A stretch of DNA of 64,000 bases from NCBI RefSeq assembly GCF_023897065.1, contig NZ_JAMHIV010000046.1, positions 1 to 64,000 of the forward strand. Reading direction: 5' to 3'. The number at the start of each line of letters is the position of its first letter. Within the stretch, counting starts at the first letter, position 1. The stretch is from Crossiella sp. SN42. GTDB lineage: Bacteria; Actinomycetota; Actinomycetes; Mycobacteriales; Pseudonocardiaceae. Below the pieces are notes generated by a model, which saw only the letters and a program-made list of their open reading frames with translations, was not told the origin of the DNA and did not search any database. The position numbers were made by a program, and so were the translations under genes. This document shows, piece after piece, positions 32,460 to 50,794 of the stretch.

Positions 32460-32509
32460 TCCGGAATCGCTGCTAGCCTGCTGAAGGTTTGCTCGATTTC
32501 GCACGCGCG

Positions 32510-32549
32510 CTAGGAGGTGATCGCCCATGACTCTCGGTGATCCTCCTAG
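32510..32549 (+). promoter_or_regulatory. SD-sequestering hairpin in the leader of the ABC/mgtC operon
   Basis: CTAGGAGG (32510-32517) is the exact reverse complement of CCTCCTAG (32542-32549). An inner stem (32520-32525 with 32536-32541, one G-U) can stack on it after a 2-nt bulge, leaving a loop that holds the ATG of the leader peptide. The SD is thus paired with the leader's own Pro-Pro codons. A pyrimidine-rich tract (about 32557-32586) follows and could be a Rho-loading site. The permease ATG at 32659 lacks a clear SD. Confidence 0.6.
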
Positions 32550-32562
32550 TAGTCGTTTCTGA
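32527..32562 (+). CDS. 11-residue leader peptide of the ABC/mgtC operon
   Basis: ATG to TGA, encoding MTLGDPPSSRF, with an ideal SD AGGAGG 9 nt upstream. It is far too short for an enzyme and lies 96 nt before the permease gene. The acidic-Pro-Pro sequence recalls the Mg2+-sensing leaders mgtL/mgtP of enterobacteria, and the operon ends in mgtC. A similar leader precedes corA at 50594-50662. Confidence 0.55.
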   Translation: MTLGDPPSSRF

Positions 32563-32658
32563 CTTCTTTCTTCTCTTATTTCCCGGTGCGCCCTGAGCTG
32601 GCGTAGCCGGTGACTTCTGCTGCCCTTTTTCCGGCATTCGCACAGTTCGGATCCCGTC

Positions 32659-34380
32659 ATGTTCGCTGTCCTTGGCGTGCCCGCACGCCGTCGCGCCGTG
32701 CTGACCGACGCCGCCGTCGCGCTGGGCGTCGGCCTGCTGCTCTACCTGGCCATCCGCCTCGGCGCGGGCGTCATCGCGCCGCTGCCCGCCGACCATTCCC
32801 TGGACCGGATCAGCACCGATCCCTCGGTGCTGCCCTACTACGCGGGCCGCACGCTGCTGCGGATGTTCGCCGCGTTCGCGCTCTCGTTGGTCTTCACCAT
32901 GGTGGCAGGCACGCTGGCGGCCCGGTCCCGGCGCGCGGAAAAGATCATCCTGCCTGCCCTGGACATTCTCCAGTCGGTGCCGATCCTGGGTTTCCTCTCC
33001 GTCACGGTCACCGGATTCATCGCGCTTTTCCCGGGTTCCACGCTCGGGGTGGAATGCGCGTCGGTATTCGCCATCTTCACCTCGCAGGCGTGGAACATGA
33101 CCTTCGCCTGGTACCAGGCATTGCGCGCGCAGCCGAGGGAGCTCGGTGAGGCGGCCACCATGCTGCGGCTGACCCGCTGGCAGCGGTTCTGGAAGCTGGA
33201 CGCGCCGAGCACGGTGATCCCGCTGCTGTGGAACGGGATGATGAGCTTCGGCGGCGGCTGGTTCTTCGTGGTGGCCGCCGAGGCGATCAGCGTGCTCAAC
33301 CAGAGCTACGCGCTGCCCGGCATCGGCAGCTACGTGGCCGCGGCCACCGAACGCGCCCAGGACGACCGGCTGCTGCTGGCCATCGGCGCCATGGTGCTGC
33401 TGGTGCTGGCGGTGAACCTGCTGTTCTGGCGGCCGCTGACGGCCTGGGCCGAGCGGTTCCGGATCGAGGAGGCCGAGGCGGCCACCGCGCCGCGCAGCCT
33501 GGTGCTGGACCTGCTGCGCCGCTCCAGCCTGCCCCGCCGCCTGGCCGCGCTGCTGCGCCCGCTGGGCGAGGGGCTGGACCGGGCGGCCAGGGTCTTCGGC
33601 AGGCCGAGGGACCACTGGCAGGTCTCGGCTGGCCGCCGCGGGCTGGGTGACGCTGCGCTGCTGGTCGCGGTGCTGGCGCTGCTGGGCTGGGGCACGGTGT
33701 CCGCGGTCGGCTACCTGGCCGGCACCGCGAGCTGGGCCGATGTCGGCGAGGCCGCCTGGCTGGGCCTGGTCACCTTCGGCCGGGTGCTGCTGATCGTGGC
33801 GGTGTCCTCGCTGGTGTGGGTGCCGGTCGGGGTGTGGATCGGGCTGCACCCGAGGGTGTCCCGGCTGGCCCAGCCGGTGGTGCAGGTGCTGGCGAGCTTC
33901 CCGACCAACTTCCTGTTCCCGTTCGTCACCGCGCTGCTCATCGGCACCGGCGTCACCCTGGACTGGGGCGGCATCCTGCTGATGAGCCTGGGCGCGCAGT
34001 GGTACGTGCTGTTCAACGTGATCGCCGGGGCCAGCGCGATCCCGGCCGACCTGCGCGAGGCCGCCGCGGACCTGCGGCTGCGCGGCTGGCTGCGCTGGCG
34101 GCGGCTGATCCTGCCCGCGGTGTTCCCGGCCTGGGTCACCGGCGCGCTGACCGCGGCCGGCGGCGCGTGGAACGCCTCGATCGTCTCGGAGTTCGTCTCC
34201 TACGGCGGCGACACGCTCACCGCCACCGGCCTGGGCGCCTACATCAAGACCGCCACCGAGAGCGGCAACCAGCCGCACATCCTGATCGGCGTGGTGGTCA
34301 TGAGCGCCTACGTCGTCGCCCTCAACCGGCTCTGCTGGCGGCCGCTCCAGGCCCTCGCCCAGCGCCGCTACCACCTCTGA
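32659..34380 (+). CDS. Tandem-domain ABC transporter permease (NitT/TauT-like)
   Basis: 573 aa, ATG. Two binding-protein-dependent permease units are fused, at about 60-265 and 345-560. Each has an EAA-type loop: LGEAATMLRLTRWQRFWKL and LREAAADLRLRGWLRWRRL. About twelve hydrophobic segments. The fold is that of nitrate/sulfonate/taurine-type importers, but no substrate-binding protein is encoded here, so the substrate and even the direction of transport are open. It is first in an operon with the ATPase (15 nt) and mgtC. Confidence 0.85.
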   Translation: MFAVLGVPARRRAVLTDAAVALGVGLLLYLAIRLGAGVIAPLPADHSLDRISTDPSVLPYYAGRTLLRMFAAFALSLVFTMVAGTLAARSRRAEKIILPALDILQSVPILGFLSVTVTGFIALFPGSTLGVECASVFAIFTSQAWNMTFAWYQALRAQPRELGEAATMLRLTRWQRFWKLDAPSTVIPLLWNGMMSFGGGWFFVVAAEAISVLNQSYALPGIGSYVAAATERAQDDRLLLAIGAMVLLVLAVNLLFWRPLTAWAERFRIEEAEAATAPRSLVLDLLRRSSLPRRLAALLRPLGEGLDRAARVFGRPRDHWQVSAGRRGLGDAALLVAVLALLGWGTVSAVGYLAGTASWADVGEAAWLGLVTFGRVLLIVAVSSLVWVPVGVWIGLHPRVSRLAQPVVQVLASFPTNFLFPFVTALLIGTGVTLDWGGILLMSLGAQWYVLFNVIAGASAIPADLREAAADLRLRGWLRWRRLILPAVFPAWVTGALTAAGGAWNASIVSEFVSYGGDTLTATGLGAYIKTATESGNQPHILIGVVVMSAYVVALNRLCWRPLQALAQRRYHL

Positions 34381-34395
34381 GATCGGAGTGCTGAC

Positions 34396-35661
34396 ATGAC
34401 CATCGTGGCACTGGAGCACGTCTCCAAGAACTTCAGCGGCCTGCCCGTGCTGGCCGACATCAACCTGGAACTGCGCGCGGGCGAGGTGGTCGCGCTGCTC
34501 GGCAAGTCCGGTTCCGGCAAGTCGACGCTGCTGCGCACCATCGCCGGGCTGGTCGAGCCCAGCAGCGGCCGGGTCAGCTACCGCGGCGAGGCGCTGCGCG
34601 GGGCGAACCCCGGCACCGCCATGGTGTTCCAGAGCTTCGCGCTGCTGCCCTGGCTGACCGTGCGGGAGAACGTGGAGCTCGGCTTGCAGGCGCGCGGGGT
34701 CGCGCAGGCGGAACGGCGGCGGCGGGCCGAGGAGATGATCGACCTGATCGGCCTGGACGGCTTCGCCGGGGCCTACCCGAAGGAGCTCTCCGGCGGCATG
34801 CGGCAGCGGGTCGGCTTCGCCCGCGCGCTGGTGCTGGAGCCGGACGCGCTGCTGATGGACGAGCCGTTCTCCGCGCTGGACGTGCTCACTGCGGAGAACC
34901 TGCGCAGCGAGCTGATGGCGCTGTGGGGCAGCGCGCGGTTCCCGACCAGGGCGATCTGCGTGGTCACGCACAACATCGAGGAGGCCGTGCTCTTGGCCGA
35001 CCGGGTGCTGGTGTTGGGAGCAAACCCCGGCCGGATCACCGCGGAGATCACCGTGCCGCTGAGCAGGCCGAGAGACCGGCGCGGTGCGGGGTTCCTGGCC
35101 GTGGTGGACCAGATCTACACCGCTCTCACCGGCTCGGCCGCGGGCCGCACCATTCCTGACCCGCGCACCCCGCTCATGCGCCCGCTCCCCGAGGCCACCG
35201 TCGGCGGCCTGGCGGGCCTGGTCGAGCTGGTCGCGGGCAGCGGCGGCCGAGCCGAGTTGCCCGAGCTGGCCGCGCAGCTGTCCTTCGAGGTCGACGACCT
35301 GATGCCGCTGGTGGACGCGGCCGGCATGCTCGGCCTGGTCGAGGTGGCCGGGGCCGGGGCGCACCTGACCCTGGACGGGCAGGTGTGGGCCGAGGCGGAC
35401 ATCCCGGCCAGCAAGCGGCAGTTCGCCAAGCTGGCCGAGGCGCACGCGCCGCTGATCGGGATGATCACGCACGCGTTGCGCACCAGCCGCACCGGACGGC
35501 TGCGGCAGACCTTCTTCCTGGACCTGCTGCGCCGCGGGTTCACCCAACAGGAGGCGATGCGGCAACTCGCCGTGGCCGTGGACTGGGGCCGCTACGGCGA
35601 GCTGTTCGACTTCGACGCGGTGGCGCAGGAGCTGGTGCTGGCGGACGGAGAGCGGTCATGA
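34396..35661 (+). CDS. ABC transporter ATPase with C-terminal AAA-associated domain
   Basis: 421 aa, ATG. The ATPase domain (1-~250) has Walker A GKSGSGKST (36-44), VFQSFALLPWL, signature LSGGMRQRV (about 132), Walker B LLMDEPFSALD (about 152) and VTHNIEEAV. Residues about 275-415 form the AAA-associated C-terminal domain (PF09821-like), which is rare in importers and may be regulatory. Its stop overlaps the mgtC start (ATGA). Probable partner of the tandem permease. Confidence 0.85.
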   Translation: MTIVALEHVSKNFSGLPVLADINLELRAGEVVALLGKSGSGKSTLLRTIAGLVEPSSGRVSYRGEALRGANPGTAMVFQSFALLPWLTVRENVELGLQARGVAQAERRRRAEEMIDLIGLDGFAGAYPKELSGGMRQRVGFARALVLEPDALLMDEPFSALDVLTAENLRSELMALWGSARFPTRAICVVTHNIEEAVLLADRVLVLGANPGRITAEITVPLSRPRDRRGAGFLAVVDQIYTALTGSAAGRTIPDPRTPLMRPLPEATVGGLAGLVELVAGSGGRAELPELAAQLSFEVDDLMPLVDAAGMLGLVEVAGAGAHLTLDGQVWAEADIPASKRQFAKLAEAHAPLIGMITHALRTSRTGRLRQTFFLDLLRRGFTQQEAMRQLAVAVDWGRYGELFDFDAVAQELVLADGERS

Positions 35662-36362
35662 CGTTGCTGTGGTGGGAGGTCGCCGCCCGGCTGGGCTCGG
35701 CGCTGGTGCTCGGCTCGGTGATCGGGCTGGAGCGGCAGTGGCGGGCCCGGATGGCCGGGCTGCGCACCAACGCGCTGGTGGCCACAGGGGCGGCGCTGTT
35801 CGTGCTGCTCAGCGTGCTCACCCCGGGCGAGGGCAGCCCGACCAGGATCGCCGCCCAGGTGGTCTCCGGTATCGGTTTCCTGGGCGCGGGCGTGATCATC
35901 CGGGACGGGGTGAGCCTGCGCGGGATCAACACCGCGGCCACCATCTGGGGCGCGGCCGGCGTCGGCTGCCTGGCTGGCGCCGGGCTGTTCCCGCACGCCG
36001 CGGCGGGGGCGGCGGCGATCGTGCTGGCCAACGTGGTGCTGCGCTCGCTGGCCCGCAAGGTCGACCGCACCCAGTCCGAGACCGACCGGCGCTACCTGTA
36101 CGACTTCAAGGCGGTCTGCCGGGACGCCGAGGAGGCGCACATCCGCGCGCTGGTCGTGCAGTCGGTGACCACGGCCGGATTTGTGTTGCAGGGCCTGGAA
36201 AGCGAGGACCTGGGCGCCTCCGGCAAGGTGGAGGTCACCGCGCGGCTGTCCGGCAAGGGCAAGCAGGGCACCGAACTGGAGTCCGCGGTCAGCCGCCTGA
36301 GCCTGGAACCGGGCATCAGCTCGGTCAGCTGGCGGGTCGTGGAGTCCGACCCGGAGGTCTGA
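35658..36362 (+). CDS. mgtC: MgtC/SapB family membrane protein
   Basis: 234 aa, ATG within the ATPase stop. The N-terminal ~140 residues have the MgtC hydrophobic core with GSVIGLERQWRARMAGLRTNALVATGAALF and GIGFLGAGVIIRDG...GINTAATIWGAAGVG. A C-terminal ACT-like cytosolic domain follows (about 150-232). MgtC proteins are linked to survival at low Mg2+ and to ATP-synthase control in pathogens. Last gene of the operon. Confidence 0.88.
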   Translation: MTLLWWEVAARLGSALVLGSVIGLERQWRARMAGLRTNALVATGAALFVLLSVLTPGEGSPTRIAAQVVSGIGFLGAGVIIRDGVSLRGINTAATIWGAAGVGCLAGAGLFPHAAAGAAAIVLANVVLRSLARKVDRTQSETDRRYLYDFKAVCRDAEEAHIRALVVQSVTTAGFVLQGLESEDLGASGKVEVTARLSGKGKQGTELESAVSRLSLEPGISSVSWRVVESDPEV

Positions 36363-36366
36363 CCCG

Positions 36367-36399
36367 CCCCGGCCCCGGCGGAGCTCGCCGGGGCCGGGG
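36367..36399. terminator. Perfect bidirectional terminator between mgtC and the PKS
   Basis: A 14-bp stem without mismatch (CCCCGGCCCCGGCG with its exact complement) and a 5-nt loop fill the 40-bp gap between two convergent genes. Confidence 0.85.
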
Positions 36400-36402
36400 G
36401 TC

Positions 36403-39400
36403 TCACTGCCGGTTCGGCGCTGAGCTCAGCGAACGCAGCAGCTGCTTCAGGTGCGCGCCGATCACCTCGACGTTGGGCGGGTCCAGCACCGAGAGGTGGT
36501 GGCCGGGCACCCGGACCACCTCCAGCGCCGGGGCGAACTCGTCCCAGCCCAGCGGGGCGTCGTCCCGGTCGAAGCGCGGGTCCTTCAGGCCGCCGGGGGT
36601 CTTGTCGGCGGCGCTGTAGAGCACCACCCGGCCGTCGTAGAGCTCCGGCTGGTAGCGCTCCAGGACCCTGGTGTCCAGGAACGAGGTGCGCTGGTGGTGC
36701 AGGATCGCGGTGCTCACCTCCACGTTGACCAGCTGGTGCGCGGTCATCTGCTCGATCAGCAGGTCGATCTGCTCCTCGTCGTCCAGCCGGGCCAGCACGT
36801 CGTACGGCAGCTCGATCCGCCTGCCGTAGCTGGCTTCCAGGAAGTCGGCGAAGCGGCGGAAGCGCAGCTCGGCCAGCCGCACCTCGTCCAGGCCCGCCGG
36901 TAGCGGCAGCGGGTTCAGCGAGTCGATCATCGCCACCAGCTCCACCTCCGCGCCGGCCGCGGTGAGCTGCTGGGCCACCTCGTAGGCCAGGAACCCGCCG
37001 AGGGACCAGCCGGCCAGCCGGTAGGGGCCGCTGGGCTGCACCGCGCGCACGTGGTCCAGGTAGCAGCCCGCCTTCTCCGGCAGCTCGCGCACGTGGTCCA
37101 CCCGGTCCAGGCCGTAGGCGGGCTGGTCGGGGTCGAGCAGGTCGACCAGCTGCCGGTAGACCGCGGTGTCGCCGCCGGCCGGGTGGAAGAAGAACAGCGG
37201 TGGCTGGCCGCCGTCCCTGCGCAGCACCCGCAGCGGCGACTGGCCGCTGCCGACCTCGCGCTCCCGCACCCAGCGGGCCATGCCCTCCACCGTGGGCACC
37301 GCGAACAGCTCGTCCACCCGCAGCACCCGGCCGCTGCGCTCGGCCAGCAGCCCGGCGATCCGCTCGGCCTGCACCGGGGTGCCACCGGCGGACTCGAAGG
37401 TCTCGGTGACCCCGACCGGGCGCAGCAGCACCTCCTGCCACACCGCGCTGACCAACCGTTCGGCCGCGTCCCTCGGCGGCACCCTGACCGGCTGCGCGGG
37501 ACCGGACTCCCTGGCCCCCAGCGAAAGTTCGCCGAACAGCCAGGTCTCCAGCTCGGCCAGGCTCGCGCCGCGCAGCAGCAGCGCGGTGGGCAGGGTGAGC
37601 CCGAAGTCGTGCTGCACCGCGTTCTTCACCCGGACCGCCAGCAGCGAGTCCAGGCCGAGCCCGGTCAGCGGCGACTCCGCGGGCAGCGACTCGGCGGCGA
37701 AGCCCATCAGCCCGGCCACCCTGGCCCGCAGCTGCCCGGCCGCGATCCGGCGGGCCTCCGCTGGGTCCACTGTGGACAGTGCTTCGACCCCGGGCCACTC
37801 GACCTCGGCGACCGGCGCGGCCGGGACCAGCTCGGCGAAGAACGGCGTCCTGGCCGCCTCCGGGAACAGCTCGGCCAGCGCCCGCACGTCCAGGCGCAGC
37901 ACGCCGGTGGCCGGGCGGCCGGAGGCCAGCACCGCCTCCAGCGCGGCCACACCCTGGTCCGGGGTGATCGCGGCGACCGCGCCGACCTCGCGCTGGGCGG
38001 CCAGGCCGACCTCAGCCCAGGTGCCCCAGTTGATGGTGGCCGCCACCTGGCCCTCGCCGCGGCGGCGGGCGGTGACCGCGTCCAGGTAGGCGTTCGCCGC
38101 GGCGTAGGCGGCCTGGCCCGGTGAGCCGAGCAGCGCGGCCGCGGAGGAGAAGCCGAGCCACCAGTCCAGTGGCAGCCCGCTGGTGGCCTCGTGCAGCCGC
38201 CAGGCGCCGTAGGCCTTGGGCCGCCACACCCGGCGCACGTTGTCCGCGTCCAGCCGGCCCAGCACCCGGTCGTCCAGCACCGCGGCCGCGTGCACCACAC
38301 CGCGCAGGCTGGACCCGTCCTGGGCCACCTCGACCAGCCGTTCGGCCACCCCGGGTTCGGCGATGTCCCCGGTGACCACCTCGACCACGGCACCAGCGGC
38401 GCGCAGCTCGGTGATCATCTGCCGGGCGGTGGTGCCGGGGTTGGACCGGCCGTTGAGCACCACCTTGCCCGCGCCCCGCTCCACCAGCCAGCTCGCCAGC
38501 ACCAGGCCGAGTCCGCCGAGTCCGCCGGTGACCACGTACGCGCCGCCGGAGCGCACCACCGGCGCCTCGGCCGGTTCGGGCAGGGTCGCCCGCCGCAGCC
38601 GGGCCGCGTACCGGACCCCGCCGCGCCAGGCCACCTCGTCCTCGGTGCCGCCGCCGAGCAGCTCGGCCAGCAGTTCGGCCACCGCCGCGGTGGCGTCCAC
38701 GTCCACCCAGCTGGCCCGCAGCGCGGGCTGCTCGAAGGCCAGCACCCTGGCCAGTCCGCGCAGCGCGGCCGCGGCCGGGCGCACCAGCTCCGCGCCCACC
38801 ACATCGGCCCCGCCCCCGCCGACCAGCCACAACCTCGGGGTCAGGCCGCGTTCGGCGACCGCGCCGACCACGGCGGAGGCGGCCACGGTCAGCCGCAGCG
38901 CCGCGTCCAGGCCCTCCGGACCGTCCGGATCCGGTTGCACCAGCACGATCCCGGCCGGCGCCGCCTGGTCCAGCACCTCGGCCAGCAGCTCGGCGGTGAT
39001 GTCCACAGTGGACAGCAGGATCGGGTGCCTGCCCGCGGCGGCGAGGCCGTCGGCCAGGTCGCAGACCAGCTTGTCGTCCTCGCCGATCACCAGCCAGGTC
39101 CCGCTGGTCTCGCCCACCGGGGCGGGCGGCAGATCCGCGCGCTGCCACACCGTTTCCAGCAGCAGCTCACCCAGCGGCACGGTCAGCTCGGTCCGGCGCA
39201 CCTTGCGCACGAACACGCCGTTGATCTCCAGCACCAGCCTGCCGTCCGGATCGCTGAGCTGGACGTCGGCCAGGATGCCGCCGCCCTCGCCGGAGACCCG
39301 GACCTGGCACAGGCCGCCCTGGCTGACCTCGCCGTAGACCCGCACCGCGCCGAACTCCATCGGCAGGTGCAGCTCGTTGTCCGCCACCGGCGGCAGCGCC

Positions 39401-42400
39401 GCGCCGAGCACCTGCAGGCAGGAGTCCAGCACCGCGGGGTGCGCGGCGAACCGCGAGTTCGGCGGGGCCTGCTCGGGCAGCACCACGCTGGCCGCGGCGG
39501 TGCCGTCGCCGGTGGCGTGCACCTCGGTCACCCCGGCGAAGGCCGGGCCGTGCTGCTGGCCGAGGGCGCGCAGCCGCCGGTACAGCTCGGCCCGCTCGAT
39601 TCCCGGGCCGGACAACAGGTCCGAGCCGTCGAAGGGCGCCAGCTTGGCCTCCGCCGGTTCGGCCGCGGCCACCTTGGCGGTGGCGTGCAGCGTCCAGCTG
39701 TCGTCCTCGGCCCGGCTGTAGATGTTGACCAGTCCGCGCAGCCCGCCGCCGGGGATCAGCACCGTGGTCAGCCCGGTGCGCGCGCCCAGCGCCAGCGGCC
39801 GGTGCAGCGCCACGTCGCTGGCCTGCACCTGCCCGACCGGCAGCCCGAAGGCCGCGCTGGCCGCGGACAGCGCGATCTCGGCGTAGGCCACGCCCGGCAG
39901 CACCGGCACGTCGTCCACCCGGTGGTCGGTCAGCCAGGGCAGCGCCTCCAGCCCGACCTCGGCCGACCACAGGTGCCTGCCGTCCTCCGGCAGCTCCAGG
40001 TGCGTGCCCAGCAACGGATGTCCGGCGGTGGCGCCACCGCGGCGGCGGCTCGGCGCGACCCAGTACGGCTGGTGCCGCCAGGGCGTGGTGGGCAGTTCGG
40101 CGAACCCGGCCCCGGCCTTGGGCAGCGGATGCCCGGCCAGGCGCAGCCTGCCCAGCTCGTGCCGCAGCTGCCTGCGTTCCGGCTCCTGGCGGCGCAGGCT
40201 GGCCAGCACCACCGGATCGGCCTCCTCGGCCCGCGCGGTCTCGGTGATCGCCTGGGCCAGCACCGGGTGCGGGGCGATCTCCAGGAACACGCCGAACCCG
40301 TCGGCCAGCGCGCGGGAGACCGCCTCGGCGAAGCGCACCGGCTGCCGCAGGTTGGCCACCCAGTAGCCGGAGTCGAACCTCGGCTGCTCGGACACCGTGC
40401 TGTAGAAGGGGATCTCCGGCTTGCGGCCGCGCAGTCCGCGCAGCTCGGCGGCCAGCGCGGGCAGCACCGGCTCGACCAGGGCGGAGTGGCTGGCCACGTC
40501 CACCTTGACCAGCCGGGCCATCCGCCCGCTCGCCTCCACCCGGGCCACCAGCTCGGCCACCGCCTCGGCCGGTCCGGCGACCACGGTCTGGCCGGGCGCG
40601 TTCCGCACCGCGATGTCCACATCGGACAGTCCGGCGGCCAGCTCGGGCAGCTCGTCCGCGCGCAGCTCCAGCGCGGCCATCACCCCCGGCTGAGCCAGCT
40701 CCGCGGCCAGCCGGGACCGCGCGGTGACCACCCGCACCCCGTCGGCCAGTGACAGCGCGCCGCTCACCACGGCCGCGGCCACCTCGCCCACCGAGTGCCC
40801 GATCACCGCGTCCGGCCGCACCCCGGCGGCACGCCACAGCTCGGCCAGGGCCACCTGCACCGCGAACAGCGTCGGCTGTACCACGGCGAACCCGTTCAGC
40901 TCGGCCTTGGCCGACAACAGCTCCAGCGGCGAGAACCCGGCCGCCGCGCGCACCAGTTCGTCCACTTCGGACAGCGCCTCGGCGAACACCGGCTCGGTGG
41001 CCAGCAGCTCCGCGCCCATGCCCGCCCACTGCGAGCCGTGCCCGGAGAACACCCACACCACCCCGGAACCGAGCCGGTCGCCCCGGCTCACCGCGATGTT
41101 CGGCGCGACCCGGCCAGCGGCCAACGTGCGCAAGCCTTCCAGCAGCTCGGCCTTGTTCTCGGCGGTGACCAGCGCCCGGCTCGGCCCGGCGAACCGCCGG
41201 TGCAGCGCGTCGCGGACCGCGCCGAGATCGGTCTGCGCGGTGGCCAGCCACTCGGCCAGCCGGCCCGCGCTGTCCCGGATTCGTTCTGGAGAGGGGCCGG
41301 ACAACAGGTAGCCATCCGGCCCCTCCACCGTCGAAACAGAGGCAGTCGCGGCTACCTCCTCGACGATCACGTGCGCGTTGGTGCCGCCGAACCCGAAACC
41401 GGAGACTCCGGCGCGGGCCGGGCGGTCCTGACGCGGCCACGGCTGGGACTCGGCGGCCACCGCCAGTCCAAGCCGGTCGAACGGGATGTGCGGGTTGGGC
41501 TCGGTGAAGTGCAGGCTGGCCGGGATGGCGTCGTGGGCCAGCGACAGCACCACCTTGATCAGCCCGGTGATGCCGGCCGCGGCCTCCAGGTGACCCACGT
41601 TGGTCTTCACCGACCCGATCAGCAGCGGCGCGCCGGGCTCGCGGTCCGCGCCGAGCACCGCGCCCAGCGAACCGGCCTCGATCGGATCGCCGAGCAGCGT
41701 GCCGGTGCCGTGTGCCTCCACGTAGTCCACTTCGGACGGTGCGATGCCCGCGTTGGCGTAAGCCGTGCGCAGCAAGGCTTCCTGGGCCTCCGGGTTGGGT
41801 GCGGTGATGCCGTTGGACCGGCCGTCGGAGTTGACCGCCGACCCGCGCAGCACCGCGAGCACCCGGTCCCCGTCCCGCCGGGCGTCGGCCAAGCGCTTGA
41901 GCACCACCACGCCCGCGCCCTCGGCCCGGACCATGCCGTTGGCCGCGGCGTCGAAGGCCCGGCACCGGCCATCTGGCGAGGTGACGCCCATCTGGTCGAA
42001 GTTGACCGTGACACCGGGGCCCAGCAACAGGTTCACGCCGCCGGCCAGGGCCACCTCGCTCTCCCCGGCGCGCAGGCTCTGCATGGCCAGGTGCACCGCG
42101 ACCAGCGAGGAGGAGCAGGCGCTGTCCACCGCCACACTCGGCCCACGCAGGTCCAGCACGTAGGAGAGCCGGTTGGCCGCGATGCTCAGCGCCGCGCCGG
42201 TGCCGCTCCAGGCGTCGATCCGCTCGGCCTCGCTGATCGCCAGCTGCCCGTACTCGTTGCCGCTGATCCCGACGAACACCCCGGTCCGGCTGCCGCGCAG
42301 CCCGGCGGGCGCGATCCCGGCGTGCTCCAGGGCTTCCCAGCTGACCTCCAGCAGCAGTCGTTGCTGCGGGTCCATGCCGGCCGCCTCGCGCGGGCTGATG

Positions 42401-42921
42401 CCGAAGAAGTCGGCGTCGAAGCCGGTGATGTCGTCCAGGTAGCCGCCCCAGCGGGTGGTGCGGGCCAGCACCTCGGCCGCCTCCGGCGAACCGGCGTGCC
42501 CGGCCCAGCGCTGCTCGGGCACCTCGGAGATGACCTCACGGCCGCTGGAAAGCAGGTCCCAGAAGGCTTCCGGGCCGTCGACCCCGCCGGGCAGGCGGCA
42601 GCCGAGGCCGACCACCGCGATCGGCTCGGTGGCTTGCGGGGCCGCTGACGCCGCGGGCGGGACGGCGTCAGCGGCCCGTGGCGCGGCCCCATCGAGCAGG
42701 GCCGCGCTGATTCCGGCGATCGTCGGGTGCTCCCAGACCAGCGTCGCCGGAAGACTGCGGTCGAGGTGGTCCTCCAGCTGACCGGACAGCGCCACCGCGT
42801 CCCGCGAGGACAGCCCGTAGCTGTCCAGCGGCTGGTGCACGTCGATCTCCTCCGGCGTGCGGCCGACGGTCTCGGCCACCCGGCGCAGCAGCCAGTCCTG
42901 GAGTTGTTGCCTGGTGGTCAT
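36403..42921 (-). CDS. Single-module type I polyketide synthase ACP-KS-AT-DH-KR-ACP-(dead carrier)-TE
   Basis: 2172 aa from ATG 42921, overlapping the FAAL stop (ATGA). Domains by approximate residue: N-terminal ACP (YGLSS, Ser39); KS from ~99 (DSACSSS ~267, EAHGTGT, TNVGH); AT (GHSVGE ~709, VASHS ~810, a methylmalonyl-type motif); DH (LTDHRVDDVPVLPG ~1000, HPAVLDSCLQ ~1164); KR (VTGGLGGLGL ~1467, LDD motif, Tyr ~1608); ACP (GLDSL ~1757); PCP-like domain with GGTP instead of GGxS (~1848); TE (GWSLGG ~1973, GHH ~2140). No ER is seen. Predicted: a FAAL-activated acyl chain is loaded on the first ACP, extended once with a 2-methyl branch, reduced, dehydrated and released by TE. Confidence 0.9.
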   Translation of the reverse strand: MTTRQQLQDWLLRRVAETVGRTPEEIDVHQPLDSYGLSSRDAVALSGQLEDHLDRSLPATLVWEHPTIAGISAALLDGAAPRAADAVPPAASAAPQATEPIAVVGLGCRLPGGVDGPEAFWDLLSSGREVISEVPEQRWAGHAGSPEAAEVLARTTRWGGYLDDITGFDADFFGISPREAAGMDPQQRLLLEVSWEALEHAGIAPAGLRGSRTGVFVGISGNEYGQLAISEAERIDAWSGTGAALSIAANRLSYVLDLRGPSVAVDSACSSSLVAVHLAMQSLRAGESEVALAGGVNLLLGPGVTVNFDQMGVTSPDGRCRAFDAAANGMVRAEGAGVVVLKRLADARRDGDRVLAVLRGSAVNSDGRSNGITAPNPEAQEALLRTAYANAGIAPSEVDYVEAHGTGTLLGDPIEAGSLGAVLGADREPGAPLLIGSVKTNVGHLEAAAGITGLIKVVLSLAHDAIPASLHFTEPNPHIPFDRLGLAVAAESQPWPRQDRPARAGVSGFGFGGTNAHVIVEEVAATASVSTVEGPDGYLLSGPSPERIRDSAGRLAEWLATAQTDLGAVRDALHRRFAGPSRALVTAENKAELLEGLRTLAAGRVAPNIAVSRGDRLGSGVVWVFSGHGSQWAGMGAELLATEPVFAEALSEVDELVRAAAGFSPLELLSAKAELNGFAVVQPTLFAVQVALAELWRAAGVRPDAVIGHSVGEVAAAVVSGALSLADGVRVVTARSRLAAELAQPGVMAALELRADELPELAAGLSDVDIAVRNAPGQTVVAGPAEAVAELVARVEASGRMARLVKVDVASHSALVEPVLPALAAELRGLRGRKPEIPFYSTVSEQPRFDSGYWVANLRQPVRFAEAVSRALADGFGVFLEIAPHPVLAQAITETARAEEADPVVLASLRRQEPERRQLRHELGRLRLAGHPLPKAGAGFAELPTTPWRHQPYWVAPSRRRGGATAGHPLLGTHLELPEDGRHLWSAEVGLEALPWLTDHRVDDVPVLPGVAYAEIALSAASAAFGLPVGQVQASDVALHRPLALGARTGLTTVLIPGGGLRGLVNIYSRAEDDSWTLHATAKVAAAEPAEAKLAPFDGSDLLSGPGIERAELYRRLRALGQQHGPAFAGVTEVHATGDGTAAASVVLPEQAPPNSRFAAHPAVLDSCLQVLGAALPPVADNELHLPMEFGAVRVYGEVSQGGLCQVRVSGEGGGILADVQLSDPDGRLVLEINGVFVRKVRRTELTVPLGELLLETVWQRADLPPAPVGETSGTWLVIGEDDKLVCDLADGLAAAGRHPILLSTVDITAELLAEVLDQAAPAGIVLVQPDPDGPEGLDAALRLTVAASAVVGAVAERGLTPRLWLVGGGGADVVGAELVRPAAAALRGLARVLAFEQPALRASWVDVDATAAVAELLAELLGGGTEDEVAWRGGVRYAARLRRATLPEPAEAPVVRSGGAYVVTGGLGGLGLVLASWLVERGAGKVVLNGRSNPGTTARQMITELRAAGAVVEVVTGDIAEPGVAERLVEVAQDGSSLRGVVHAAAVLDDRVLGRLDADNVRRVWRPKAYGAWRLHEATSGLPLDWWLGFSSAAALLGSPGQAAYAAANAYLDAVTARRRGEGQVAATINWGTWAEVGLAAQREVGAVAAITPDQGVAALEAVLASGRPATGVLRLDVRALAELFPEAARTPFFAELVPAAPVAEVEWPGVEALSTVDPAEARRIAAGQLRARVAGLMGFAAESLPAESPLTGLGLDSLLAVRVKNAVQHDFGLTLPTALLLRGASLAELETWLFGELSLGARESGPAQPVRVPPRDAAERLVSAVWQEVLLRPVGVTETFESAGGTPVQAERIAGLLAERSGRVLRVDELFAVPTVEGMARWVREREVGSGQSPLRVLRRDGGQPPLFFFHPAGGDTAVYRQLVDLLDPDQPAYGLDRVDHVRELPEKAGCYLDHVRAVQPSGPYRLAGWSLGGFLAYEVAQQLTAAGAEVELVAMIDSLNPLPLPAGLDEVRLAELRFRRFADFLEASYGRRIELPYDVLARLDDEEQIDLLIEQMTAHQLVNVEVSTAILHHQRTSFLDTRVLERYQPELYDGRVVLYSAADKTPGGLKDPRFDRDDAPLGWDEFAPALEVVRVPGHHLSVLDPPNVEVIGAHLKQLLRSLSSAPNRQ

Positions 42922-44672
42922 AGCAGCTCTCCGTATGCCCCGCTGAGGTACTGGTCCCTGGTCGCGCCGCGGGCGATCTTGCCGCTGGAGGTGCGCCGCA
43001 CCTTGCCGGGCGGCACCAGCCGGAAGTCGGCCAGCCGCAGGTCGTGGTGGGCCGAGACGGCCTGGCGCACCGCTAGGGCGACCGCGGCCGGGTCCCGGTC
43101 CGGCTCCGGCACGTGCCGGGAGTACTCGGCGATCACCACCACGCGCTCGTCCGCGCCCTCGGTGAGCGCGAAGGCGGCCACGTAGTCCCGCCGGACCGCG
43201 GGGTGCGCCTCGTGCACGGTGCCCTCGATGTCCTGCGGGTAGTGGTTCTTGCCGTCGATGATGATCAGGTCCTTGGCCCGGCCGGTGATGAACAGCTCGC
43301 CCTGGTGCAGCGCGCCCAGGTCGCCGGTGCGCAGCCAGCCGCGTTCCGGGGCCGAGTCCGGGCCGCTGGTCAGGTGGCCGTCGAAGTCCTGTGCGGACTC
43401 CTCGGGTTTCTGCCAGTAGCCGTCGGCCACGTTCGGCCCGTGCACCCACACCTCGCCGACCGCGCCCTCGGGCAGCGCCGCGCCGGTGGCCGGGTCGACC
43501 ACCAGCACCCGCAACGCGATGCCGGTGCCCGCGCCGACCAGTTCGAGTGCGGTGTCCGAAGTGGACGGTGTCAGCCTGCCCGCGCTGAGCTCGGCCCGGT
43601 CAACCTTGAGCACGGTTGGTCCGGCGGCTCCGGTGGCGGTGACGTACACGGTGGCCTCGGCCAGGCCGTAGGACGGGCGGTGCGCCTCGGGGGCCAGTCC
43701 GGCCGGGCCGAAGGCGGCGTTGAACCGCTCGATCGTCTTGGCCCGCACCGGCTCGCTGCCGTTGATCATGATCTTGACCCTGGACAGGTTCACAGTGGAC
43801 TTGAACTCGTCACTGGTGCGCGCGACGGCGTAGTCGTAGGCGAAGTTCGGCGCCGCGGTCAGCGTGTTCGGGTGCGCGGCCAGCTGGCGCAGCCAGCGCT
43901 CCGGCCGCTGCAGGAAGGCGAACGGGGTGCAGAACACCGAGTGCGCGCCCAGCAGCACCGGCACCGCGAGCATCGACATCAGGCCCATGTCGTGGAAGAA
44001 CGGGATCCAGCCGGAGCAGGTGTAACCGGCGTCCATGCCGTAGGCCGCGGCGATCTGCGCGGAGTTCACCACCAGGTTCCGGTGCGTGATCACCGCGCCG
44101 CTGGGCGCCCTGGTGGAGCCGGAGGTGTACTGGAGGTAGGCCGGGTCGTCCATGGACACCAGCGCGGGCCGGAAACCCGCCGCCGCCGACGGATCCACCT
44201 TGTCCACCGCGAGCACCTGCTTCGGGCTGGGCGCCAGCTCGCCGTCGAGCAGCTTGCGCACCTGCGGCAACGCGTTCTCCGTGGCCAGCCACACCTCGGG
44301 ATCGCAGTCGGCCAGCGCGCCGACCAGCCGGGACCCGTGCAGGCTCACCTCGGGCGCGAACAGCGGCACGCCGATCACGCCCGCGTACAGGCAGCCCAGG
44401 AACGCGACCACGTAGTTGAGGTCGTGCGGGGTCAGGATGGCCACCCTGGCTCCCGGCGCGGTGGTCTGGCGCAGCTGCCCGGCCAGCGCGCGGGCCCGCA
44501 GGTCCAGCTCGCGCCAGGTCAGCGTGTGCTCGATCCCGGCCCGGTCCTCGTTGTAGTCGACGAAGGTGAATGCCGGGCGGTCGCTGTTCGCGTTTCGGTG
44601 CAGAAAACCGGTGAGCGGCATCGACCCGGTGAAGTCGTGCTGTGCCGGCACGGCGAATTCGATGTGGTTCAT
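42918..44672 (-). CDS. Fatty acyl-AMP ligase (FadD32-like FAAL)
   Basis: 584 aa from ATG 44672. Adenylate-forming enzyme with YTSGSTRAPSGAVITHRN (~160-178), GWIPFFHDMGLM, NGSEPVRAKTIERF, RPSYGLAEATVYV, RTGDLG and the C-terminal GKNHYPQDIE and TSSGKIAR. The DMGL segment, NGSEP and the substrate-pocket layout are typical of FAALs that hand acyl-AMP to a carrier protein rather than to CoA. It is coupled to the PKS and should load its N-terminal ACP, as FadD32 does for Pks13. Confidence 0.9.
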   Translation of the reverse strand: MNHIEFAVPAQHDFTGSMPLTGFLHRNANSDRPAFTFVDYNEDRAGIEHTLTWRELDLRARALAGQLRQTTAPGARVAILTPHDLNYVVAFLGCLYAGVIGVPLFAPEVSLHGSRLVGALADCDPEVWLATENALPQVRKLLDGELAPSPKQVLAVDKVDPSAAAGFRPALVSMDDPAYLQYTSGSTRAPSGAVITHRNLVVNSAQIAAAYGMDAGYTCSGWIPFFHDMGLMSMLAVPVLLGAHSVFCTPFAFLQRPERWLRQLAAHPNTLTAAPNFAYDYAVARTSDEFKSTVNLSRVKIMINGSEPVRAKTIERFNAAFGPAGLAPEAHRPSYGLAEATVYVTATGAAGPTVLKVDRAELSAGRLTPSTSDTALELVGAGTGIALRVLVVDPATGAALPEGAVGEVWVHGPNVADGYWQKPEESAQDFDGHLTSGPDSAPERGWLRTGDLGALHQGELFITGRAKDLIIIDGKNHYPQDIEGTVHEAHPAVRRDYVAAFALTEGADERVVVIAEYSRHVPEPDRDPAAVALAVRQAVSAHHDLRLADFRLVPPGKVRRTSSGKIARGATRDQYLSGAYGELL

Positions 44673-44776
44673 CGGAGAGTCACCCTTTTCGGGGAAGGGA
44701 GCTGAGGGAGCGGCCGTGCGTCGTCGAATGGCCGGTGTGAATCCATTGTCGAACGGATCGTTAGGAATGCAACCTC

Positions 44777-44796
44777 CCTGGGTATGTGAACCCAGG
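44777..44796. promoter_or_regulatory. Inverted repeat between esterase and FAAL genes
   Basis: CCTGGG-N8-CCCAGG, perfect arms, in the 137-bp gap that should hold the FAAL-PKS promoter. It could be an operator or a weak terminator of the esterase gene. Nothing else is evident in this gap. Confidence 0.4.
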
Positions 44797-44809
44797 CACG
44801 TGCCAGACC

Positions 44810-45652: not shown

Positions 45653-45686
45653 ACGAGAAGCCTCAATTCGACGTTAGTGGGAATTC

Positions 45687-46871
45687 GTGAAAACCGAGGA
45701 ACTGACCCGTTCGCCCTGGCTCGTGCTCACCGCGGTCGCGGTCGGCTCGGTGATGACCGGCGTGGACGGCACCGCGCTCACCATCGCCGGCCCGGACCTG
45801 GCCGCCGACCTCGGCGCCTCCCTGACCGGCCTGCAGTGGGTGGCCAACGCCTACCTGCTGGCCACCGCGCTCGCCCTGCTCCCGGCAGGCGCGCTGGCCG
45901 ACCGCTACGGGCGGCGCGCGGTGTTCCTGTGCGGGGTGGCCGGTTTCACCCTGACCTCGCTGGCCATCGCGCTGGCCGGACAGGTCTGGTTGGTGATCGC
46001 CCTGCGCGCGCTGCAAGGGGTGTTCAGCGCCATGCTGCAACCGGCCGCGCTCGCCTTGCTGCGGGCCAGCTTCCCGCCGCGCACGCTGGCGCCGGCGATC
46101 GGCGTGTGGAGCGCGGTGGCCGCGCTCGGCCTGGCCGCCGGACCGCTGCTCGGCGGCCTGCTGGTGGCCGCGGGCGGCTGGTCGGCGATCTTCTACGTCA
46201 ACCTGCCGGTCGGCCTGCTCGCCATCGCGCTCACCCTGCTCTTCGTCCAGGAGTCCCGCACGGACCAGGCACTGCGCCTCCGTCAGGTGCTGGACCTGGT
46301 GCGCCCCAGGCAGTTCCGGGCCGGGGTGGCGCTGGTCGCGGTCACCTTCGGCGCGCTGTTCGGCGTGCTGTTCCTGCTCACCCTGTACCTGCAGAACCTC
46401 AAGGCCCTCGACCCGGTGACCGCCGGGCTGTGGCTGGTCCCGGTCACCGGCGTGGTGGTGCTCAGCGCCCCGCTCGGCGGCGCGCTGACCCGCCGCCACG
46501 GCCCGGTCCCGCCCGCGGTCGCCGGTCTGCTGCTGGTCGCGGCCGGACTGTTCACCATGACCACGCTGGACGTGGCCTCCGGCGCCACCGCGGTCGCGCT
46601 GGCCACCGTGCCGCTGGGCCTCGGCGGCGGGCTGGCCCTGGTCGCCGCCACCGAGGCGATCCTGGCCGCCGCGCCGCCGGCGGAGGCCGGGCTGGCCTCG
46701 GCGGTGCAGCAGGTGGCCGGTCAACTCGGTGGGCTGGCGGGCATCGCGGTGCTCGGCTCGATCCTGGACGGGGGTCGCAGCTTCACCAGCGGCCTGCACA
46801 CCGCCGTGCTGGTGGCCGCGGCCGCCGTCACCGTGAGCGCGCCGCTCGCCGCACTGCTGCGACGTCACTGA
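45687..46871 (+). CDS. MFS transporter (drug/H+ antiporter type)
   Basis: 394 aa, GTG start behind GTGGGA. About twelve hydrophobic segments. The family motif QWVANAYLLATALALLPAGALADRYGRR is split here only for length: TM2 QWVANAYLL and loop GALADRYGRR are both present, with an N-terminal GVDGTALTIAGP. Probably a proton-coupled exporter. It is divergent from the esterase, 34 bp apart, and its last 44 nt overlap the convergent MmpL gene. Confidence 0.82.
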   Translation: MKTEELTRSPWLVLTAVAVGSVMTGVDGTALTIAGPDLAADLGASLTGLQWVANAYLLATALALLPAGALADRYGRRAVFLCGVAGFTLTSLAIALAGQVWLVIALRALQGVFSAMLQPAALALLRASFPPRTLAPAIGVWSAVAALGLAAGPLLGGLLVAAGGWSAIFYVNLPVGLLAIALTLLFVQESRTDQALRLRQVLDLVRPRQFRAGVALVAVTFGALFGVLFLLTLYLQNLKALDPVTAGLWLVPVTGVVVLSAPLGGALTRRHGPVPPAVAGLLLVAAGLFTMTTLDVASGATAVALATVPLGLGGGLALVAATEAILAAAPPAEAGLASAVQQVAGQLGGLAGIAVLGSILDGGRSFTSGLHTAVLVAAAAVTVSAPLAALLRRH

Positions 46872-48903: not shown

Positions 48904-48966
48904 CGGGAACCCCCTGGCGGCTGGGAGAGGAAACCCGATGATGCGCGCCGCTACCTACCAACAGAC

Positions 48967-48983
48967 CATCCGAAGGTCGGATG
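48967..48983. promoter_or_regulatory. 17-bp palindromic operator upstream of mmpL
   Basis: CATCCGA-AGG-TCGGATG: 7-bp perfect arms and a 3-nt spacer, 64 bp upstream of the MmpL start and inside its only promoter space (48904-49008). The form is typical of TetR-type operators, which often control mmpL genes. No TetR gene lies in this window. Confidence 0.6.
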
Positions 48984-49008
48984 ACCGCGGTGTCCTGTCA
49001 CACAGCCC

Positions 49009-49410
49009 TCAGGGCAGCGGGATCGGGTTCACCTGCCACCGGTTGTCCGCGTGCACCGTCGGCAGGTGCAGGGTGCCCCGGGCGCCGTCCGGCCGCAGGT
49101 AGCTCACGGTCAGCTGCATCCGGCCGCGCAGCAGTTCCGGGGTGGTGCTGATGTCGCGGACCCCGGCCTCGGCGAACCCGGACACGGTGGCCTGCGCGGC
49201 CTCCTCCGCCCCGTTGGGCAGCGAGACCAGCTCGGCCAGCCGTTCCGCGTCGGCCGCCCGCAGCGCGTCGGTCACGCCGGTGGCCAGCTCCTCCACCGAG
49301 GCCGCGCCCTTCTCCGGCTGGTTGGTGATCATGATGATCAGCGCGGTGATCCAGACCGCGGCGAAGAGCACGATCCAGGTGCGCAGGCTGCGTACTGCTT
49401 TCAGCAACAT
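49009..49410 (-). CDS. Small membrane-anchored protein downstream of corA
   Basis: 133 aa, ATG, 4 nt after corA. One N-terminal TM (about 10-29), then a soluble domain outside the membrane with alternating helix and strand, possibly NTF2-like (VEELATGVTDALRAADAERLAEL, LTVSYLRPDGARGTL, RWQVNPIPL). No function is assigned. Operon position ties it to CorA. Confidence 0.7.
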   Translation of the reverse strand: MLLKAVRSLRTWIVLFAAVWITALIIMITNQPEKGAASVEELATGVTDALRAADAERLAELVSLPNGAEEAAQATVSGFAEAGVRDISTTPELLRGRMQLTVSYLRPDGARGTLHLPTVHADNRWQVNPIPLP

Positions 49411-49414
49411 GGGT

Positions 49415-50497
49415 TCACAGCCACTGGTTGCGGCGGAAGATGCGGTACAGGACCAGGCAGGCCACCAGGATCACCGACAGGATGACCGGGTAGCCGTAGG
49501 TCCACTTCAGCTCCGGCATGACGTCGAAGTTCATGCCGTAGATCCCGGCGATCATCGTGGGCACCGAGATGATGGCCACCCAGGCGCTGATCTTGCGCAT
49601 GTCGTTGTTCTGCCGCAGCGTGATCTTGGCCAGCACCGCGTCGATCAGCGTGGTCAGCATCTCGTCGAAGGTGACGATCCGGTCGTGCACGGTGGTGAGA
49701 TGGTCGTCCACGTCCCGGAAGAAGGTGCGCACCTCATCCGGCACCAGCGGGATGTAGCCCTCGGCCAGCCGCCGCAGCGGGGTGGCCAGCGGGCCCACCG
49801 CCCGGCGCAGCTCCATGACCTCGCGCTTCATCAGGTAGATCTGCTCGGGGTCCACCGCGCTGCGCGGGTCGAAGACCTCCACCTCGAGGGTGTCGATGTC
49901 GTCCTCGACCGCGCTGGTCACGTCCAGGTAGGTGTCCACCACGTGGTCGGCGATGGCGTGCAGCACCGCGGCCGGACCGAGGGCGAGCTTCTCCTCGTCC
50001 TGCTCCAGCTCGGCGCGCAGCCCGGCCAGCGCCTGGTGCTTGCCGTGCCGGACCGTGATCACGAAGTTCCGGCCGACGAAGACCATCACCTCGCCGGTCT
50101 CCACGATCTCGTTCGCCGTGGTCGGCGACTCGTGTGCGACGTAGCGCACCGTCTTGAGCACCATGAACAGGCTGTCGTCGTAGCGCTCCAGCTTGGGTCG
50201 CTGGTGCGCGTGCACCGCGTCCTCCACCGCCAGCTCGTGCAGCCCGAAGGTCTCCGCGATGCTCTGGATCTGCTGCTCGTCCGGCTCGTGCAGGCCGATC
50301 CAGACGAAGCCGGAGCCGCGCTTGCGGACCTCCTCCACCGCGCCGGTGTGGGTCCAGCGCCCAGGCAGGCGCTTGCCGTCGACGTACACGCCGCAGTCCA
50401 CCACGTAGGCGGACAGCGGCACCGGGATCTGCTGCGGCATGGCACTTCCGTTACGAGGAGCACGGCCGCGCAGGCCGAGCGTGGGCAGAACGGACAT
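49415..50497 (-). CDS. corA: CorA family magnesium/cobalt channel
   Basis: 360 aa, ATG with SD GGAG; a second ATG at 50440 is possible. Large cytosolic N-terminal domain, long stalk helix and two C-terminal TMs separated by the signature GMN in IYGMNFDVMPELKW. The basic C-terminus RRNQWL is typical. It mediates passive Mg2+ uptake as a pentamer. It is first in an operon with the 133-aa membrane protein and is preceded by a 297-bp region that encodes a short leader peptide. Confidence 0.92.
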   Translation of the reverse strand: MSVLPTLGLRGRAPRNGSAMPQQIPVPLSAYVVDCGVYVDGKRLPGRWTHTGAVEEVRKRGSGFVWIGLHEPDEQQIQSIAETFGLHELAVEDAVHAHQRPKLERYDDSLFMVLKTVRYVAHESPTTANEIVETGEVMVFVGRNFVITVRHGKHQALAGLRAELEQDEEKLALGPAAVLHAIADHVVDTYLDVTSAVEDDIDTLEVEVFDPRSAVDPEQIYLMKREVMELRRAVGPLATPLRRLAEGYIPLVPDEVRTFFRDVDDHLTTVHDRIVTFDEMLTTLIDAVLAKITLRQNNDMRKISAWVAIISVPTMIAGIYGMNFDVMPELKWTYGYPVILSVILVACLVLYRIFRRNQWL

Positions 50498-50584
50498 GGA
50501 AGGCTCCAGTCGAACGCGACGCGAACACGGGTGTGCCGCCAGAACCTGGCTGGGGCTCCGGCGCGATAGCGCGTCCCGACCGGT

Positions 50585-50668
50585 CGATGGGTCCTACCTC
50601 GTTGTAGCGAGCCCACCGGCGAGGACGCGGTCGGTACTGGGAGGGTTGCTGTCTGTACCCATCGCGTC
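50585..50668 (-). promoter_or_regulatory. Alternative hairpins in the corA leader
   Basis: Read on the minus strand, CGATGGGT around the leader-peptide start (50657-50664) can pair perfectly with ACCCATCG just after its stop (50585-50592). Alternatively GACGCG and GGTAC in the same start region pair with GTACC and CGCGTC inside the peptide gene (50624-50640). The two structures exclude each other, as in attenuators. The rest of the gap from 50498 to 50794 shows a small GCCAG/CTGGC hairpin nearer corA and no other gene. Confidence 0.5.
50594..50662 (-). CDS. 22-residue leader peptide upstream of corA
   Basis: ATG to TAG, starting MGTDSNPPSTDRVLAGG, with an ideal SD AGGAGG 9 nt upstream and the same AGGAGGTGA string as the leader at 32527. 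The Pro-Pro-Ser codons (CCT CCC AGT) match those of the other leader (CCT CCT AGT) and can pair with the SD. It ends 96 nt before corA. CorA of Salmonella also has a leader peptide (corL), so a regulatory role is plausible. Confidence 0.55.
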   Translation of the reverse strand: MGTDSNPPSTDRVLAGGLATTR

Positions 50669-50794
50669 TCACCTCCTCGGGGCCATGGCCGGAACGGTGG
50701 ATTCGCTCACAGACCGGTTGTCGAGACTACCCGTACCCGGGCAAGACTGTCCTCCCCGGTCATGGTCGATCGGCCACCACCTTTGGGAGGCAGC

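Follow-up and report, generated by a model that had tools for sequence, protein, structure and literature searches.

Two leaders in a stretch of the Crossiella sp. SN42 genome (contig NZ_JAMHIV010000046.1, positions 1 to 64,000; this 64,000-nucleotide stretch is referred to as the window) each place a strong Shine-Dalgarno (SD) sequence and a short upstream open reading frame (uORF) before genes linked to Mg2+, leader 1 before an operon that includes mgtC and leader 2 before corA. We put at about one in two the probability that they belong to a family of cis-regulatory uORFs on the Mg2+-uptake operons of actinomycetes that acts as a ribosome-dependent switch. The uORF family is widespread and has so far been described in part, and its members are probably ribosome-controlled RNA switches for magnesium uptake. 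Judged from sequence, the leader design is real and broader than an earlier note on this DNA had proposed; it would be a variant form of leader-peptide control of Mg2+ transport, with a plausible mechanism. The reading is carried by the uORF family itself, its genomic association, its codon bias, a covarying pairing between two leader segments (segments 1 and 2) in two classes of leaders, and the adjacency of M-box riboswitches; an alternative pairing with the uORF initiation region is a weaker observation. The features of the two leaders are as follows.

32512..32520, + strand: leader 1 SD, AGGAGGTGA, by string match
32527..32562, + strand: leader 1 uORF, MTLGDPPSSRF and stop, with codons GAT CCT CCT AGT AGT; the ortholog L033 encodes the identical peptide
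32542-32550, + strand: leader 1 CCTCCYAGT string, CCTCCTAGT, by string match
32509..32550, + strand: predicted leader 1 hairpin masking SD and start codon, GCTAGGAGG..ATCGCC with GGTGAT CCTCCTAGT (z −3.4)
50669..50677, − strand: leader 2 SD, AGGAGGTGA, by string match
50663..50668, − strand: leader 2 spacer between SD and start, GACGCG, pairable with CGCGTC of segment 1 (p = 0.09 for leader 2 alone)
50594..50662, − strand: leader 2 uORF, MGTDSNPPSTDRVLAGGLATTR and stop, read from the sequence
50644-50636, − strand: leader 2 CCTCCYAGT string, CCTCCCAGT, by string match
50616..50629, − strand: leader 2 segment 1, CGCGTCCTCGCCGG, inside the uORF and shortly 3′ of the AGT-ACC codons
50570..50583, − strand: leader 2 segment 2, CCGGTCGGGACGCG, 3′ of the uORF stop, the covarying partner of segment 1

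Both leaders carry AGGAGGTGA, which we take to be a perfect SD, the complement of the 16S 3′ end, and both have 9 nucleotides (nt) from AGGAGG to ATG, as the earlier note had stated; it was also right that both precede Mg2+-linked genes, encoding an ATP-binding cassette (ABC) permease, an ATPase, and MgtC after leader 1 and CorA after leader 2. The two leaders are retained in all five genomes sampled from the genus (G000, G055, G016, G086, and G108), and the 39-nt core of leader 1, from the SD through AGT, is identical in these five. The leader 1 uORF ends 96 nt before the permease start at 32659, and neither window leader showed a sigma-70-type promoter or an intrinsic terminator when scanned. 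Just 3′ of the leader 1 uORF lies a stretch rich in pyrimidines (window 32563-32585, + strand), a candidate Rho-binding region.

Leaders like leader 2 stand upstream of nearly all corA genes inspected in the bacterial family Pseudonocardiaceae. corA is present in 93 of 100 genomes of this family (E ≤ 1e-60), and upstream DNA was inspected at 70 matches, comprising 30 given as loci and the next 40 in the ranking. A pattern search found a uORF at 66 of the 70, or 67 with L156, which has a weaker SD and was recognized by eye; L166, L189, and L190 have none. The encoded peptides include MSSGDSPLPSSASVP, MSKDPHPASTTRVLIG, MSSADTALPCSTTRVLAG, and MSGTDSAPSTSSVPTGRV, and the leader 2 peptide belongs to the MSTDSNPPSTDRVL form. 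As a background set, a slightly stricter pattern applied to 752,557 bases, on both strands, yielded 110 other SD-led short open reading frames (ORFs).

The beginnings of the corA uORFs are rich in codons that the corA genes rarely use. When codons 2 to 13 of 60 distinct corA uORFs were compared with the corA genes of 30 loci, AGT made up 148 of 249 serine codons (59%) in the uORFs versus 7 of 400 (1.8%) in corA; the corresponding figures were 31/60 versus 18/678 for GAT, 12/15 versus 7/362 for CAT, and 33/100 versus 11/567 for CCT. All 60 distinct corA uORFs have an in-frame AGT within codons 2 to 15. AGT was no selection criterion here, and this is the unbiased count; another, 56/59, comes from a list partly chosen on AGT. 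The last serine of the S[ST] motif that precedes segment 1 is AGT in 48/56, and four corA uORFs lack the motif. An acidic residue followed by proline within five residues occurs in 49/56 corA, 6/9 M-box, and 23/32 other ABC/mgtC uORFs, versus 15/99 control short ORFs, and an acidic residue is present in all 25 peptides of a further class with the N-terminus MTGEGSS.

In the corA class, the codons just 3′ of AGT-ACC (segment 1) can form a 12-bp stem with a segment past the uORF stop (segment 2). The stem was tested on 24 of the 66 corA leaders, a chosen set in which an RVL/RVP-type ending predominates and from which two of an initial 26 had been dropped: 95.5% of cells are paired, four pairs have changed on both sides, and the covariation score is 0.211 versus 0.158, reached by 0 of 500 shuffles, while slid versions pair at 22-48%. 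By our own reading, this stem outscores every other helix in 43 of 58 distinct corA leaders, and another helix scores best in 15. Its two sides vary together across these 58, as GCGTCC/GGACGC, CGCATCCC/GGGATGCG, CCAGCGTTTCCC/GGGAAACGCTGG, CGCCTCCCGCTG/CGGCGGGAGGCG, and TCGTCCCAGC/GCTGGGACGA, and the helix score of cognate segments exceeds the mean of non-cognate ones in 44/58. The MTGEGSS class, which is mostly mgtA-first, has its own version of the stem (CCACGCGG/CCGCGTGG and variants). With the whole rest of the uORF searched, its best helix starts at uORF nt 22-30 in 23/25 leaders; with the search limited to nt 21-47, cognate pairs exceed the mean of non-cognate ones in 24/25, and 17/25 reach p < 0.05 against shuffles.

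Segment 1 of the corA leaders is also complementary to the uORF initiation region, the best case being GGTGAGGACGCG/CGCGTCCTCGCC. This complementarity reaches p < 0.05 in 20/58 and p < 0.01 in 8/58 leaders (p = 0.09 in leader 2 itself), and cognate exceeds mean non-cognate in 40/58. The site overlaps that of the best segment 2 partner by at least 4 nt in 38/58; segment 1 of many corA leaders can thus pair with segment 2 or with the initiation region, and the two pairings are mutually exclusive. An additional competitor that we had suspected by eye, segment 2 with a site near the corA SD, was rejected. Some clades show, strikingly by eye, a small hairpin whose loop holds the start codon; several mycobacterial-type leaders seem to lack it.

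In leader 1, the one structure that folding supports is the SD-masking hairpin (−24.2 kcal/mol; 1 of 200 shuffles was as good); a similar SD pairing with changed bases was seen by eye in Allokutzneria (L047). That strong hairpin, the complementarity of initiation region and segment 1, and the near-fixed AGT before segment 1 would also suit a pure RNA element, whether a metal sensor or a thermodynamic switch that masks the SD, the uORF then being a by-product of a strong ribosome-binding site. We think this distinctly unlikely: SD, start codon, and open frame are retained in 67/70 corA leaders, the hairpins around the uORF are very different between leaders, and no Rfam family matched the window at gathering score.

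The uORFs are not confined to corA. Among homologs of the window permease (the best 80 of 340 relatives), 55 of 80 loci have an mgtA/mgtC/ABC operon headed by an SD-led uORF, a compilation that partly used an AGT criterion and in which some entries resemble the uORF family weakly; three further leaders lie elsewhere within fetched loci L038, L074, and L091. The uORF tracks the operon start and not a particular gene. The first gene often encodes an 826-916 aa protein (many Pseudonocardiaceae, Amycolatopsis, and Mycolicibacterium loci), which in the two cases tested (L041 and L055) is the magnesium P-type ATPase MgtA (TIGR01524 above cut-off). MgtC comes first in several Nocardia operons (L104 tested), and the permease in Crossiella, Microbacterium, Arthrobacter, and others. 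The peptides include MTGEGSSR, MIEGSST, MSDGHSP, MSDDHSP, MSSDPAS, and MPGGNSP, and VSLNPCDPPSSRRG of Allokutzneria is close to leader 1.

In other genera the M-box riboswitch (RF00380) lies directly 5′ of uORFs on the same kinds of operon. Where the permease or mgtC is the first gene, Rfam M-boxes precede the uORF at L037, L073, L084, L097, L101-L104, L107, and L109, and they also stand directly 5′ of a uORF at L038 (second locus) and L074. With strict filters, 5 of 148 class genomes have an M-box; all nine M-boxes of the class sample are followed by a uORF (peptides such as MSSSDSP, MSPGDSPY, MSPGHSP, MSSGSSP, and MPEGNSQ), with Pro7 in 8/9. The uORF is retained at loci without an M-box: seven loci that lack the M-box 3′ hallmark (L039, L043, L047, L052, L054, L075, and L111) have none at gathering score, and the window's genome has none in the window at gathering score or in its whole length at E ≤ 1. 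At L074 the gene 3′ of the uORF encodes NRAMP, and those at L091 and L224 are NRAMP-like by eye. As a side observation, Streptomyces orinoci has two loci (L074 and L091) that both contain the permease and in which a uORF stands 5′ of an NRAMP-like gene; two copies of the M-box are confirmed by Rfam at L074, and the 3′ hallmark alone was seen at L091. In Gandjariella, an M-box and uORF at L038:7182-7492 lie upstream of a further gene.

Direct sequence comparison gave a mixed outcome. A model built from 20 Pseudonocardiaceae corA uORFs was run, as a held-out test, on 46 sources (402 kb) with matches accepted to E 5. It gave seven matches: the window corA leader (a training member), the M-box uORFs L121 (6.8e-5), L120 (3.5e-4), and L118 (0.019), the corA leader L236 from outside the bacterial family (1.3e-3), L245 (0.12, away from the L245 uORF), and L111 (E 1.8). 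Leader 1 and the mgtA/mgtC class are tied to the corA class by orthologous operons, design, and intermediate forms, such as VSSGDSS (L073) and MSDGHSP (L084), which stand under M-boxes and before the permease. Many top matches of another model, R1, were training sequences, since it was trained on all classes; among its non-corA matches, L222, L223, and L225 re-find L045 and L038 and only L224 is new. Its matches L226-L230 were judged false by eye.

The idea that one leader design serves two Mg2+ loci thus finds support, and more broadly than the earlier note proposed, although the signature it gave, AGGAGGTGA followed by CCTCCYAGT, is wrong in detail. CCTCC occurs in 18 of 60 distinct corA uORFs, versus in-frame AGT in all 60; it is a clade variant, and conservation lies in a short uORF that combines a strong SD with codons seldom used in these genomes. 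The proposed back-pairing of CCT-CCY-AGT to the SD is strong in leader 1 but absent from the predicted leader 2 fold, in which other partners outcompete it, and we rejected CCTCC-SD pairing as a common element. The suggested pattern search, in a loosened combined form, found two matches in the 9.7-Mb genome, both of them the window leaders, with one in a backward-read control; across 200 genomes of the bacterial family (114 matched), it hit mostly other sequence at about the backward-control rate, as judged from the table without summing, and was discarded as a regulon probe. Within the window, AGGAGGTGA occurs three times against 0.37 expected, and CCTCCYAGT twice against 1.05 expected, a number that 28 of 100 shuffles reach. 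The third AGGAGGTGA (15925-15933, + strand) is outside any leader and lies inside a coding sequence that by eye resembles an ABC sugar-transporter ATPase.

Some of these results would fit a coincidence of two unrelated strong-SD short ORFs: CCTCCYAGT alone is at chance, the combined pattern is near control level across the bacterial family, and the corA-trained model does not match leader 1. We nevertheless consider coincidence very improbable, as the comparative data already contradict it, and most plainly so for leader 2; orthologous leaders are conserved though CCTCC is not, and elsewhere M-boxes adjoin uORFs on both kinds of operon.

The closest described system is mycobacterial. D'Halluin et al. 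(RNA 2026; PMC12810186) report a conserved uORF, uORF2 or Rv1805A, 3′ of mycobacterial M-boxes; in the portions of that paper that we draw on, the peptide is termed specific for mycobacteria, with one M-box-independent homolog, and the M-box platform comprises a translation initiation region (TIR), an anti-TIR, and an anti-anti-TIR. The earlier note's statement that no actinobacterial system of this form had been described is thus partly outdated; among the open-licence papers listed in our literature searches, none dealt with such a uORF before actinobacterial corA or mgtA, or outside mycobacteria. As far as those portions go, the likeness comprises a short uORF with a conserved SD, placed 5′ of an operon that is linked to Mg2+ and includes mgtC, a conserved N-terminus with Pro7 (as in 8/9 M-box uORFs here), and the three-part logic, which the pairing of corA segment 1 with the initiation region or segment 2 resembles. 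Unlike that system as there described, comparable uORFs occur here in many other Actinomycetes, before corA and mgtA without an M-box, and in the corA leaders the anti-TIR is part of the uORF, with its other partner further 3′. The window leaders do not have the defining form of a Pro7 uORF 3′ of an M-box: they have no M-box, and leader 1 was scored, by position, as lacking Pro7. The family is best read as extending the mycobacterial uORF published in 2026.

A functional parallel exists in enterobacteria (E. coli and Salmonella), where, according to the part of PMC11552253 considered here, corA and mgtA come under the influence of the uORFs corL and mgtL, and prolines and acidic residues of mgtL make elongation inefficient at low Mg2+, with Rho-dependent termination as the output. 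On that account, the actinomycete leaders share a short uORF directly 5′ of the transporter genes corA and mgtA and alternative leader folds, here as RNA structure overlapping the uORF in the corA and MTGEGSS classes only. For the acidic/proline N-terminus of mgtL the comparison is mixed, most peptides of the corA, M-box, and other ABC/mgtC classes having the acidic-then-proline pattern but 5/25 in the MTGEGSS class. In corL and mgtL, uORF translation is inversely tied to the transporter; direction and Rho involvement would carry over here by analogy. The actinomycete uORFs differ in phylum and in their rare-codon block, and we regard the likeness as functional and claim no homology.

A possible mechanism runs as follows. 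The strong SD would load ribosomes onto a uORF of about 10-40 codons, which opens with many of the rare codons AGU, GAU, CCU, and CAU and, in most classes, also with many acidic residues and prolines. Segment 1 of the corA and MTGEGSS leaders, just 3′ of the AGU codons, could pair with segment 2 past the stop or, in many corA leaders, alternatively with the uORF initiation region. Ribosomes delayed near the start of the uORF would sit over segment 1, and those that translate on to the end or dissociate would leave it free, so that uORF elongation would set the leader fold and hence transporter expression, via translation or Rho-dependent termination. By analogy with mgtL and corL, low Mg2+ would impair elongation and turn the transporter on; in some lineages, an upstream M-box may be a further sensor. 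Slow decoding, the Mg2+ response, its direction, and the output step are what we infer. A stronger version, in which the translating ribosome is itself a lineage-wide Mg2+ sensor in Actinomycetes through acidic/proline and AGU-rich uORFs before several kinds of Mg2+ importer, with no riboswitch and the M-box as an optional upstream add-on, we put forward tentatively, as somewhat doubtful.

Several results weigh against a single family of ribosome-dependent switches. In a class sample, corA is found in 79 of 118 genomes (E ≤ 1e-50), and among 29 further loci from it, outside Pseudonocardiaceae, a uORF lies within 500 nt in five (L236, L244, L245, L258, and L261), 23 lack one, and the sole short ORF at L239 is unrelated; extending the range to 1.5 kb, with an AGT criterion, gave no further uORFs. 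Within the bacterial family, 3 of 11 mgtA genes have a uORF. The corA-uORF model misses 6/9 M-box uORFs and 4/5 out-of-family corA uORFs at their place, and it misses leader 1 and, except for L111, the mgtA/mgtC class; the link to these leaders is therefore one of operon, design, and intermediates rather than of direct sequence statistics. AAT is not clearly enriched in corA uORFs (2/16), and the acidic-then-proline pattern is found in 5/25 MTGEGSS peptides. As to structure, single corA leaders reach p < 0.05 for the segment 1-2 stem in 13/58 only (mononucleotide shuffling), and duplex energies of cognate segments barely beat non-cognate ones (34/58), so we dropped whole-duplex energy as a discriminator. 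For 22 of the 25 leaders in the MTGEGSS class RNAalifold predicted no pairs, an outcome that seems to stem from a MAFFT misalignment of the 3′ side; the helix search described above, which has non-cognate and shuffle controls, took its place. The stem finds no support in M-box leaders (2/9 at p < 0.05) or in other permease-first or mgtC-first leaders (3/32, one of them of MTGEGSS type). In this search across leader classes, in which one row (L095) was misread, leader 1 was represented by its near-identical ortholog L033, which has no significant downstream partner. The rejected competitor site near the corA SD reached p < 0.05 in 3/47. Since the leaders are related by descent, the shuffle counts are not probabilities.

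Our search for selection on the peptide by way of a synonymous excess found none (0.220 observed versus 0.213 under the null; 22 uORFs in four groups), a further point on the negative side, and the data thus do not separate selection on the peptide from selection on codons or RNA. Alternatively, the uORF may encode a functional small peptide, for example one with the transporter as its target, and the leader would be no more than the mRNA of that peptide. We hold this to be unlikely. Residues are recognizably similar across genera and gene contexts, and the portions of PMC12810186 used here suggest a function for the mycobacterial peptide and report its homolog outside the M-box context, but they also describe no visible difference in biofilm formation; in our leaders, length and C-termini vary, rare codons dominate, and in the corA class those C-terminal codons that are conserved fall where the RNA pairs. 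If the ribosome-dependent switch is correct, CorA and MgtA/MgtC operons in Actinomycetes would be under leader-peptide control as in enterobacteria, and the puzzling uORF of mycobacterial M-boxes would join a much wider family with M-box-free members. The leaders offer concrete codons and base pairs for testing ribosome readout of cellular Mg2+.

The genes downstream of the two leaders in the window are these.

32659..34380, + strand: ABC permease, first gene 3′ of leader 1, by homolog search
34396..35661, + strand: ABC ATPase with a C-terminal AAA_assoc_C domain, by domain match
35658..36362, + strand: MgtC (PF02308, 1.8e-35)
49415..50497, − strand: corA, downstream of leader 2 (TIGR00383, 202.9 bits versus a cut-off of 200.75)

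The permease shares 94% identity with its counterpart in Crossiella sp. S99.2. We searched the window's genome (G000; 9.72 Mb, 82 contigs) for the importer families CorA, MgtA, MgtE, and NRAMP: MgtA is absent at E ≤ 1e-150, NRAMP at E ≤ 1e-10, and MgtE at E ≤ 1e-5, and CorA is the sole importer found among them. The two leaders of this genome thus belong to that importer and to the mgtC/ABC operon. An ORF of 2348 aa (window 36403-43449, − strand), which by eye resembles a type I polyketide synthase, runs convergently to the mgtC operon.

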